45,069 nt of DNA from Candidatus Calditenuaceae archaeon. Its GTDB lineage: Archaea > Thermoproteota > Nitrososphaeria_A > Caldarchaeales > Calditenuaceae. The stretch covers positions 1 to 45,069 of the forward strand of contig JANXEU010000001.1 in NCBI GenBank assembly GCA_025058055.1, in the 5' to 3' direction. Positions 7,614 to 13,382 of this stretch are shown piece after piece. Each line of letters opens with the position of its first letter. The first letter of the stretch is position 1. Under the pieces are notes generated by a model. It was given only the letters and a program-made list of their open reading frames with translations, made no database searches and had not been told where the DNA came from. Position numbers and translations under genes: made by a program.

Positions 7614-9110
7614 ATGAGCGTTTCCATTCCTCTGCAAAAGGCAGCACCGAACATATGGATGATACCGAAGACGTTCAGACAAGACATGAAGGTACCGGTG
7701 TACGTGTTCGCTTCGGAGAAGCTGCTGGAGAAGATGAGGACTGACCGCACGCTGCTGCAAGGCGTCAATGTAGCAACCCTACAGGGAGTTCAGAAGCACG
7801 TCGCGGTGTTGCCAGACGCACACGAGGGATACGGCTTCCCGATCGGAGGCGTAGCCGCAATGGATGCAACCGAGGGCGTGATCTCACCCGGAGGGGTCGG
7901 TTACGACATCAACTGTGGTGTGAGGTTGATGGTCACAAACCTCACCGAGAAAGAGGTGAGGCCAAGGATGGTTGAGTTGGTTAACTCGGTCTTCAGGCAC
8001 GTCCCCGCAGGCCTCGGATCAAGGAGGAAGGACTTCGTAGTCTCCAGATCTGATCTCGACAGGGTGGCGGTTGAAGGCGCGAGGTACGTGATCGAGAGAT
8101 ACGGCCTCGGGTGGCACGACGACTACAAACACATCGAGGAGGAGGGCAGGTATCCCAGGTACAAGGCCGGCGAAATACCTGACCCCGACCCGGCAGTGGT
8201 CTCGAACGAGGCAAAGCAACGAGGCCTCGACCAAATAGGGACTCTGGGAAGCGGCAACCACTTCTTGGAGATCCAGAAGGTTGAGAGGATATTCGACCCC
8301 GTTGCGGCTAAGAGGATGGGCATACATCAGGAGGGACAGATAACGGTGCTGATCCACTGTGGAAGCAGGGGCTACGGCCATCAAATCTGCAGCGACTACC
8401 TCAAGGTGATGGAGAGGGCGGTAATGAAGTACAACATCAGGTTACCCGACAGAGAGCTGGCTTGTACGCCCACCAACAGTCCAGAGGCCACCATGTACCT
8501 CAAGGCGTTCGGGTGTGCAGTCAACTTCGCGTTCGCAAACAGACAGGCCATAAGTCACTGGATTAGACAGAGCTTCGAGCAGGTCTTTAAGAGGCCGGCG
8601 GAGGAGATGGGTCTGAAGATCGTGTACGACGTCTGCCACAACATCGTCAAGCTCGAGAAGCACAGGATCGACGGCGAGCTGAGGGACGTCTTCGTTCACA
8701 GGAAGGGCGCCACTCGGAGCTTCCCCGGTAACGAGCCGCCGTACACCGACTTCATTCCAGAGACCTACAAGGACATCGGGCAACCGGTCTTCGTGCCGGG
8801 CAGCATGGGGACGGCGAGCTGGGTACTCCTCGGCCAGAGGGGGTCGCTGGACCTTTCGTTCGGAAGCAGCGTCCACGGCGCCGGTAGGCAGATGAGCAGA
8901 GCGGGCGCTAAGAGGGCTTACAAGGGCGATCAGGTCGTAAGGGCTTTAGAGAGCAGGGGGATTTACGTGAAGGGTGACACCATGGACACGATCGTCGAGG
9001 AGGTCCCGGAGGCCTACAAGAACCCTGACGACGTGGTTGAGGTCGCTCACAGCGTCGGAATGAGCACGAAGGTCGCGAGGCTCGTACCGATCGGCGTAGT
9101 GAAGGGATGA
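7614..9110 (+). CDS. rtcB: RNA-splicing ligase RtcB
   Basis: PDAHEGYGFPIGGVAAMD, GGVGYDINCGVRLM, GSGNHFLEIQ, IHCGSRGYGHQ, SVHGAGRQMSR. Confidence 0.97.
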   Translation: MSVSIPLQKAAPNIWMIPKTFRQDMKVPVYVFASEKLLEKMRTDRTLLQGVNVATLQGVQKHVAVLPDAHEGYGFPIGGVAAMDATEGVISPGGVGYDINCGVRLMVTNLTEKEVRPRMVELVNSVFRHVPAGLGSRRKDFVVSRSDLDRVAVEGARYVIERYGLGWHDDYKHIEEEGRYPRYKAGEIPDPDPAVVSNEAKQRGLDQIGTLGSGNHFLEIQKVERIFDPVAAKRMGIHQEGQITVLIHCGSRGYGHQICSDYLKVMERAVMKYNIRLPDRELACTPTNSPEATMYLKAFGCAVNFAFANRQAISHWIRQSFEQVFKRPAEEMGLKIVYDVCHNIVKLEKHRIDGELRDVFVHRKGATRSFPGNEPPYTDFIPETYKDIGQPVFVPGSMGTASWVLLGQRGSLDLSFGSSVHGAGRQMSRAGAKRAYKGDQVVRALESRGIYVKGDTMDTIVEEVPEAYKNPDDVVEVAHSVGMSTKVARLVPIGVVKG

Positions 9111-9870: not shown

Positions 9871-10320
9871 ATGCGAAGGACGCAGCTATCCCTACCTCCT
9901 CGCGTCAAAGTCCTTGAGGCTCTGGGCGCGGTTGCAGGGGACAGAGTGACAGGAATCTCTGAGACCGGCTGTAAGGTCGCCGCCTCCGAGGGCGATAGGG
10001 TTTACACCGTTCGCGTGGACCTCAATACAGGCGAGGTCTTCTCCGACGACAACGGCACAGTCTACAGGAACTACGTCGGCTATCCCGTTATCGCGTTTCT
10101 TATGGTGAGAGGGATTTTGCCATACAACGAGAGGATCGCCAACCCTCTGAAAGGGATCAGGTGGAGGACTCTCAACGAGCGGTTGAGGAGCTACAAGTTA
10201 GTCGAGAGGGAGGTGGCGAATCTGCTCAAGGGCCACGACATAAGCTGGTCTGAAGTGGAGAGGTTCGCGGAGGACGTTCTTTCGAAGTTGGGCGGGTTGC
10301 AGCTTTGGAAGAGACCTTGA
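9871..10320 (+). CDS. hypothetical protein (149 aa)
   Basis: Complete ORF filling the gap between the phosphoesterase and the convergent helicase; no recognised family. Confidence 0.6.
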   Translation: MRRTQLSLPPRVKVLEALGAVAGDRVTGISETGCKVAASEGDRVYTVRVDLNTGEVFSDDNGTVYRNYVGYPVIAFLMVRGILPYNERIANPLKGIRWRTLNERLRSYKLVEREVANLLKGHDISWSEVERFAEDVLSKLGGLQLWKRP

Positions 10321-10322
10321 GG

Positions 10323-13300
10323 TCAATCGGTACCCGGTTTAGGTAGCACCATGAGGCTCAGCAGGTAGAGTGAGGTCAGCTCCTGTTTTGCGAGGTTCTC
10401 CAGAGCAGGACTCACGGTGTTGATGGCCCTCTCCCTCCAGCCCTTCCATGACGTCTGGACCTTGACGCTCTTGATCAGCACATCTATCGGCGTCATCGAC
10501 TGTTCTGAGTCCTCCGTCCTGATCGACTCGACGATGTCCCTTAGCGCGTGATCAGGTCCGAAGAGCTTCGACGCATACGGTGACAGATCAACCAGCAAGC
10601 TTTCGCCCTGAAGGCCCGTGAGCTTCGCCCTGAGAGACCTCATCCTGAGTCTGGACAGCGCGGTGTCGAGAGCCATCAAGTCGTAAGCGTAGAGCGTGAA
10701 GCCTTGATCGACCAGCTTCGATATGTATGCCGATGACTCGAGGTAAGCCTCGTCTGGGCCCTCAGGGGTGAAAACACCAACCGGAACCTTGATGGTCTCT
10801 CCATCGAAGACCGCGACTGCGTATAACTCGTACGGTGAGGATGCGGTCCCTGATACGACGGAAGCCTCACCGAAAGGCATCGAGTACACTAAGACGGTCG
10901 CTCGCCTCAAAGCCCTCGACGGTCTCGGCAGGACCAACTCCCTTCCCCTGAACTCGACCCTAATTCTCTCTCTAGCGATGAACCTCTCCAGAATGGCGAT
11001 CGCGTAGTGACGCGCCACCTCCCAATCCATCCCCTTTGCGACCAGAGTCGAGTAGGCCAGCTCGTTGACGCCTTCGAGGAGGGCCTCGTCGAGCTCATCG
11101 GGCTGATAGGTCTCGGTCAGGTCCTTGAGCTTGATCCAGTCCAACCTCTCAATCAGTCCGGCAGAGTCGGGTTCGTGCACGGTCAGGAACTTCCTCTCAC
11201 CCATCACCGCGACGTCGTACTTGATCGTCTCGAAGGGTATGCACAAAGCACGGCGCATCACGAGCTCTATGAACGCAGCCCCCAACCTCGTGAGGTCGGG
11301 CTCAGCCCTAGGATCGAGCTCTACGGTCGTGCCATACGAGTAATCAGAGTAGACTCCGTCAACGACCGCTGGCACCGTAAGCGCCCTTCCATCCCTCACG
11401 ACGATCGTCTTACCTTCGCCGACCACCATAACCCTAGGCCTTCTGCTCCGAACAGTCCAGATCGTTCTGTTGGGGACCTTGACGTACCTGTTGAAGCCGT
11501 CCGGAGGCCTCACCACGCATAGGACGTCGCTGTGAATCAACCCGGACTTAAAGTCCCTCCTCAGGTCAGGAGTAGTTCCCCATCTCTTCGTTAGCGAACG
11601 GTACTCCTCAAGCACGTAAGCCAGAGGCTCGTACCGCCTCATCACGTGTTCGACGAGGTCCTCCACCACAACACCCGTTACCACTCTGCCCTTGACGTCT
11701 GGCTTGACGAACGACGTCACGACGCCATCAGAGGTGTAATCAATGCATCCGATCTGAAACTTCTCAACTAGGTCCGCGTGCGATATCTCCTCTAGAAACC
11801 TCTCGACGTCCTGAGACCTCCGGACCCTCTTTATGCCGTAGGGAGGTGCGAACTCGTAGAAGTTGAGGTTGAGCAGGGCCCTCTTGCCTCGCTCGTTGAG
11901 GTGTAGGCCGTCCCGAAGCCCTAACCTCCCCAGCAACTCCAGCTCCTCTTGGGAAGCGCGAACCGCCCTGTTTGGGTTCGAGAGCCTGATTAGCCCTTTC
12001 ACCAACGTCACGTATTTGTTTCCCGGATGCGCTAGGAGGACCTCCCGTGGAAGCGTGAGCCACCTAAGCAGCACCTCCGGACCCCTTCGCAGCAAGTTGT
12101 AGTCCCAACCAGAGGCTGGAAAGATGACGGTCTCGGTCCTCTCGATCTCCTCCCTCCTCCCCTTCCGCCCCTCTTTCTGGAGGAACTCTCTCAGGCTGTC
12201 GGGTAGCCCCACGTGAACGGTCCTGACAGCGTGACCGATGTCTATGCCCTGAGAGAGCGTCCTCGGTGATATCAGAAGCTTGAGGTTGCCCAGCCTCGCC
12301 CTCTCCTCGATCTCAGCTCTCAAGGACTTCTCCAGTAGGTGATGATGAGACGCCACTAGATCGCCGACCCGCTCCCTGAGAGCCCTCGCGATCTCCTCGG
12401 CCTTGGCGATGCTCTTCGTGAAGACCAACGTTATTCCGTCGTCGCTGGCATACCTCTCAAGCAACTCAATCGGGTTTAACCCCAGGTCCTCAGAGAGCTC
12501 TATGTCTGTTGACCTAGCGACCTCCAAAACCTTGTAAACCGATGACTTGAAGCGGTCGTAATCCTCAAGCGACTCTAAGACGTCGCGTCCCACTCCGGCT
12601 GAAGCAAGAGCATCCCTCGAGGCGCGCAACTTCTCCCATAGGGCCCTCAGGTCCTTTCCAAGCACAACGTAAGTGAAGTTCTTAGGTCTGATGGGCATTC
12701 CATCAACGACCTCCACCCCCTTCTCGGTGATCCGCCTAACGTACTCGGCTAGTTCTGTGGGGTCCTTCAGCATGGCAGTCAATATCGCGAACCTCACCTT
12801 CGGAGACACCTCCTCTTTCACGATCGCCATCATCGCCAGCATGATCGCCAGACTTCTTGGGTTGTAGAAGTCGAGGTCGTCGATCACGAGGACGTCTAGG
12901 TCCTCGAGGAACCCTCTTGTGTAGGGTGGCCTCTCGGTGCCGAACTTCTTCAGCTCGTTCAGGAGGAACGCGGGGTTCGTGATCACGACGTTGCTACTTG
13001 AGATCTCTTCCCTCAACCTCTTTGTCCCCATCGACTTCGAGTAGTCTCTGACCGTCGGTGCGTCGACGATCGCGGCCTTCATCCCAAGGGCCTCGCAATA
13101 CCTCTTGAGCCTCTTGACTTGGTCGTTCGCCAGAGCTAGAGTCGGGTATATCGCCATCGCCTTCAGCCGCTTCTTCGCCACGTAGAGGAACCAAGCTTCC
13201 GTCTTCCCGGAACCCGTTCCAGATCGAAGTATGAGGTTTTTGCCGCTGTTCAGCGCTATCAGGGCCCTCATCTGGTGGAAGTAAAGCTCCTTATCAGCGA

Positions 13301-13382
13301 TCTCGAAACCCCCCGAACCGAGCTCGGGCAAGAGGTCTCGGAACCTGACCTTGACTCGGCTCGGCCGGGAACTTTCGGTCAC
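10323..13382 (-). CDS. large SF2 helicase, MrfA/YprA/Hrq1-like (COG1205-type), divergent, with a C-terminal RNase H/DnaQ-like domain
   Basis: Motif I RSGTGSGKTEAW, Ia YPTLALANDQ, TNPAFLL, motif II VIDDLDFY, motif III LTAML, motif IV LVFTKSIAKAEEIA, motif V SPRTLSQGIDIG, motif VI QKEGRKGRR. TATA-like box at about -29. Confidence 0.85.
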   Translation of the reverse strand: MTESSRPSRVKVRFRDLLPELGSGGFEIADKELYFHQMRALIALNSGKNLILRSGTGSGKTEAWFLYVAKKRLKAMAIYPTLALANDQVKRLKRYCEALGMKAAIVDAPTVRDYSKSMGTKRLREEISSSNVVITNPAFLLNELKKFGTERPPYTRGFLEDLDVLVIDDLDFYNPRSLAIMLAMMAIVKEEVSPKVRFAILTAMLKDPTELAEYVRRITEKGVEVVDGMPIRPKNFTYVVLGKDLRALWEKLRASRDALASAGVGRDVLESLEDYDRFKSSVYKVLEVARSTDIELSEDLGLNPIELLERYASDDGITLVFTKSIAKAEEIARALRERVGDLVASHHHLLEKSLRAEIEERARLGNLKLLISPRTLSQGIDIGHAVRTVHVGLPDSLREFLQKEGRKGRREEIERTETVIFPASGWDYNLLRRGPEVLLRWLTLPREVLLAHPGNKYVTLVKGLIRLSNPNRAVRASQEELELLGRLGLRDGLHLNERGKRALLNLNFYEFAPPYGIKRVRRSQDVERFLEEISHADLVEKFQIGCIDYTSDGVVTSFVKPDVKGRVVTGVVVEDLVEHVMRRYEPLAYVLEEYRSLTKRWGTTPDLRRDFKSGLIHSDVLCVVRPPDGFNRYVKVPNRTIWTVRSRRPRVMVVGEGKTIVVRDGRALTVPAVVDGVYSDYSYGTTVELDPRAEPDLTRLGAAFIELVMRRALCIPFETIKYDVAVMGERKFLTVHEPDSAGLIERLDWIKLKDLTETYQPDELDEALLEGVNELAYSTLVAKGMDWEVARHYAIAILERFIARERIRVEFRGRELVLPRPSRALRRATVLVYSMPFGEASVVSGTASSPYELYAVAVFDGETIKVPVGVFTPEGPDEAYLESSAYISKLVDQGFTLYAYDLMALDTALSRLRMRSLRAKLTGLQGESLLVDLSPYASKLFGPDHALRDIVESIRTEDSEQSMTPIDVLIKSVKVQTSWKGWRERAINTVSPALENLAKQELTSLYLLSLMVLPKPGTD

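Follow-up and report, generated by a model that had tools for sequence, protein, structure and literature searches.

Helicases of the YprA family are frequent in defence systems, some of these having dead nuclease tails, and YprA helicases have also been described in association with YprB or joined to it on one chain (Bell et al., 2025; PMC12458937). In MrfA (YprA) of Bacillus subtilis (PDB 6znp), the motor is followed by winged-helix, OB-like, connector and DUF1998-like elements with a four-cysteine zinc cluster (MZB/DUF1998, PF09369), and MrfB (YprB), a DEDDh exonuclease of the RNase_H_2 type, is the product of a separate gene. The YprA-YprB fusions of Bell et al. have the same pairing and fall within the repair branch of the YprA phylogeny; in the sections consulted they are mentioned in passing, without description of a dead exonuclease. 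TALON helicases are YprA-type proteins ending in an inactivated RNase H fold, are rare and largely found in Chloroflexota, belong to a zinc-module lineage, and typically lie in an operon with NERD nuclease, TPR-CSD and TBP genes (PMC12458937). Here we describe an archaeal protein in which an MrfA-like helicase is joined to a degenerate RNase H-like domain. Although YprA-YprB fusions and YprA proteins with dead tails have already been reported, the archaeal lineage appears to be new; no description of it was found in the literature searched, the coverage of which was partial.

The gene occupies positions 10323..13382 on the minus strand of the window, that is, of the whole 45,069-nucleotide stretch of Candidatus Calditenuaceae DNA analysed, and encodes 1019 aa from a GTG start; the domain coordinates given below refer to the same strand. 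The part on which the initial annotation was centred (10323-10905) is the final ~194 codons of this ORF, and the residues quoted there are indeed found in it. The helicase gene is intact and has full-length orthologs, 40-75% identical, across the Calditenuaceae and many further genomes of the order. Above cut-off, Pfam recognizes DEAD and Helicase_C only in the 1019-aa protein, and all NCBIfam matches stay below their cut-offs.

An N-terminal strand and RecA1 (residues ~12-230, 12693..13349) contain GTGSGKT (55-61), IYPTLALANDQ (78-88), DDLDFY (168-173) and TAM (202-204), and are separated from RecA2 by a small helical insert (residues ~241-300, 12483..12662), delimited from the AlphaFold secondary structure and matched by no PADLOC family. 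RecA2 (residues ~302-440, 12063..12479) has SPRTLSQGIDIG at 372-383 and QKEGRKGRR at 402-410; the SF2 motor motifs GTGSGKT, DDLD, TAM, RTLSQGIDIG and EGRKGRR are all intact. Downstream, residues ~441-800 (10983..12062) form, in the model, the winged-helix, OB-like, long-strand connector and DUF1998-like order of MrfA, that is, an MrfA-type canopy without the zinc cysteines; these elements were assigned from the secondary structure together with the fold match of the full chain, and by profile comparison the likeness of the canopy sequence to MrfA is weak. The full-length AlphaFold model (mean pLDDT 86.5, pTM 0.83) found MrfA 6znp first in a Foldseek search of the PDB (E 5.4e-27, 888 columns), the next family being Hel308 (E 8.4e-16), and the full-length profile scored 415 with archaeal YprA, 313 with Lhr and 190 with Hel308. 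By predicted fold and by profile, the helicase half, canopy included, is thus closest to MrfA. It differs from MrfA in its additional C-terminal domain and in lacking the four-cysteine cluster: no MZB match was obtained in the protein or in its own genome, and just two partly conserved Cys are seen across the family.

The C-terminal domain, hereafter the tail (residues ~820-1015, 10338..10925), is best described as a degenerate YprB/DEDD-like domain for which an RNase H/DnaQ-like fold is predicted. Its AlphaFold model, built from 29 sequences (pLDDT 86.8), has the order b1-b2-b3-aA-b4-aB-b5-aC, which the MrfB paper gives for DEDD exonucleases (PMC11194089). A fold search of the BFVD viral library placed first a protein of Pseudomonas phage LKA1 labelled 'YprB ribonuclease H-like' (prob 0.92, E 0.02); entries for phage RNase H, DnaQ-like proteins and polymerase/exonuclease followed lower in the list. 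Against the PDB, Foldseek gave weak matches that were not significant (E 0.2 or more), mostly of the RNase HI type and also to integrase and Argonaute, with no DEDD enzyme among the 50 matches listed. The PDB matches would suit a tail that arose independently, like those of TALON or TOTE systems, and whose likeness to YprB reflects a shared fold only, and the inactivated RNase H tails of TALON YprA proteins (PMC12458937) offer a precedent for it; the viral match points instead to YprB.

Profile comparison bears on the same question. A profile of 73 homologous tails aligned to 21 Thermoproteota RNase_H_2 proteins with a probability of 75, collinearly over nearly the whole domain, and its score of 37.7 exceeded both the best of 200 column-shuffled templates (19.8) and the reversed template (10.2), so the YprB-type motif order noticed in the initial annotation is beyond chance. 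Decoy profiles of RNase HII, NurA, PIN, YprA, Lhr, Hel308, RecA and the canopy reached at most 2.3%, and PolB exonuclease 8%. This specificity for RNase_H_2, not extending to RNase HII, argues against independent origin, as does the motif-I Asp, which is in the expected place in 26/73 homologs. The signal, however, is carried by the f29/f33 group (42.5%), and the Calditenuaceae alone give 0.7%, so that the assignment of the window's tail is one of homology through the family; the lack of signal in the window's own clade is what an independent origin would predict. Pfam RNase_H_2 matches one of 69 tail members (E 0.002), and PDB sequence searches with the tail profiles returned repeat and short-motif noise only. 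On balance, the greatest similarity of the tail to YprB/RNase_H_2 is supported by profile, with the fold search as independent support, and descent from YprB rather than from another RNase H-like source is likely; we regard an independent origin as conceivable but doubtful.

The tail occurs in 72 of the 300 Thermoproteota genomes sampled, its carriers including many heat-loving archaea, and the helicase part alone in 81 of the same 300, some of the extra ones being contig-end fragments. Seven homologs negative with the tail HMM were inspected, five from the f21/f13 set (L268-L272) and two from f32 (L266, L267): L272 (708 aa) stops before any tail, and the tail HMM matches neither the C-terminal extensions of L268-L271 nor the C-terminal region of L266 and L267. 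Remnants of the helicase gene with stop codons were also seen (L108, G235:C1:1195202-1196626; L115, G242:C80), and genome G235 has an intact copy in addition. In the phylogenetic tree, the family has a support of 100 and, with midpoint rooting and long branches, groups tentatively with YprA rather than with Lhr or Hel308 (SH-aLRT 86); the tail-bearing clade broadly follows taxonomy within itself, and the f21/f13 forms fall outside it.

Canonical MrfA with its zinc domain is present in other Thermoproteota and occurs together with the window-type protein in at least 12 genomes. The window protein is therefore a paralog lineage, a clade separate from MrfA/YprA. The MrfA-MrfB-type fusion proposed in the initial annotation therefore stands insofar as an MrfA-like and a YprB-like half share one chain, but not as a simple fusion of MrfA with MrfB. 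Apparent archaeal mrfBA pairs do occur elsewhere: a YprB-type protein of 412-416 aa with an intact DIE motif lies no more than about 2 kb from a canonical MZB-bearing MrfA on the same strand in G155:C4 (L116, L147), G125:C93 (L117, L148) and G170:C30 (L118, L150), all of one family.

Around the gene, the window encodes a CDC48-type ATPase, RtcB, a metallophosphoesterase, a MobA-like transferase, GMP synthase and a malate synthase-like protein, and no conserved neighbour or operon was found across 20 sampled loci from many clades. Such housekeeping neighbours, together with the lack of a conserved one, speak for a housekeeping function in the chromosome and against a defence island. No separate exonuclease gene adjoining the helicase, in the manner of an MrfAB pair, was found at the loci examined. 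RtcB was considered as a functional neighbour and rejected, as it adjoins the helicase in some Caldarchaeales, in varied arrangements, and does not recur across the other clades examined; the RtcB ligase gene is near the helicase at 7614-9110 of the window and at L029-L033 and L038, with arrangements that differ among groups of the order. On the plus strand, 9871-10320 encodes a protein of 149 aa whose match to the SAF domain is sub-threshold at best; in the majority of the Calditenuaceae loci examined, this gene and that of the helicase face each other tail to tail. The own genome also encodes a small separate RNase_H_2 protein with an intact LDIETTSL (L133, G000:C26:66462-66947), and proteins of this type are present in several related genomes with no clear linkage to the helicase. 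Co-occurrence gave no support to the separate RNase_H_2 protein as a partner nuclease: it accompanies the fusion in 7/30 genomes and is found in 16/121 without it (Fisher p 0.17).

We also asked whether the protein could be the helicase of an antiviral system of the TALON, ARMADA or Druantia type instead of a repair factor, given that the YprA family is frequent in defence and that some members have dead nuclease tails (PMC12458937). This appears unlikely. Against it stand the wide occurrence of the tail in the sample, a tree that broadly agrees with taxonomy and neighbours of the housekeeping kind; unlike those systems, the archaeal protein has no zinc-module cysteines, and no defence operon partners were found at the loci examined, the NERD nuclease, TPR-CSD and TBP genes included. 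Those systems are also marked by a BrxA-like insert; the archaeal protein has the short helical insert behind RecA1, with no PADLOC match to it. PADLOC matched just the shared motor domains of the protein. A plasmid search returned shared motor fragments only.

As to catalysis, the exonuclease set D-x-E, D, H/Y, D is complete in none of the 73 homologs, and so the alignment of orthologs recovers no member that retains it; in MrfB, by comparison, the set belongs to a free-standing enzyme. In the 73-row alignment, the motif-I Asp position is D in the 26 homologs mentioned above and E in 5/73, the following Glu is found in none of these acidic members, and the last Asp is D in 0/73. The motif-II Asp coincides with gaps in the profile alignment and is excluded from the column-by-column scoring. 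The window protein has L831, Y833 and S1004 at the catalytic positions. The loss of acidic residues noted in the initial annotation is accordingly seen, with its placement amended: by the family alignment, DxE corresponds to L831-V832-Y833 (LVY, 10884..10892) and not to 'YSM' (833-835), and the last Asp to S1004 (10371..10373) within AKQELTS. An inactive nuclease domain agrees with the loss in 73/73; the structural role assigned to it at the same time is one that we infer.

The tail is nonetheless maintained. Mean pairwise identity is 24.5% in the tail against 46% in RecA1, 58% in RecA2 and 44% in the canopy, and most close pairs for which dS is usable give the tail a dN/dS of about 0.05-0.14, with higher values in a few Calditenuis-related pairs; the tail changes more quickly than the other parts of the protein yet is under purifying selection. 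Its best-conserved element is the FDGE turn (859-862, 10797..10808), with D in 70/73, G in 73/73 and E in 65/73. This conservation could suggest that the tail cuts through other residues, for instance around the turn, but such catalysis is very improbable, considering that several homologs have N, G, Q or S in place of the acidic residues of FDGE, that the turn comes after strand b2, away from the RNase H active-site positions, and that the tail lacks a group of invariant acidic residues. Equally remote is the idea that the tail is not RNase H-like and that its matches arose by chance, for, modest as the individual E-values are, the strand order, the profile scores against shuffles and decoys and the viral fold search with YprB first all agree.

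The reading that we prefer, with a probability of roughly 0.62, is that of a chromosomal archaeal DNA-maintenance helicase in which an MrfA-like motor has retained a dead YprB-like tail, probably with a clamping or docking role. An ancestral YprA-like helicase would have acquired a YprB-like exonuclease by fusion or capture, and the acquired domain would have lost hydrolysis early and kept its fold. The helicase probably moves 3'-to-5' on single-stranded DNA as MrfA does, its polarity, substrate and role being inferred by transfer from MrfA. Since the catalytic residues are lost, the tail probably serves for gripping or guiding DNA and not for cutting it, or else for docking a nuclease encoded elsewhere, in either case while damaged strands are being removed. 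More tentatively, the family may be a deep archaeal branch of YprA in which the exonuclease was fused, inactivated and long kept as a DNA-reading or clamping module and the canopy zinc cluster was lost, making it a distinct repair helicase beside canonical MrfA.

The tail-bearing helicase is matched only generically by current family models, and the ancestry of each of its halves can now be recognized. Its tail would be a former nuclease that now serves as an accessory domain without catalysis, in parallel with the inactivated RNase H tails reported for TALON defence helicases. As excision repair in archaea is poorly understood, this widespread helicase offers a testable candidate.
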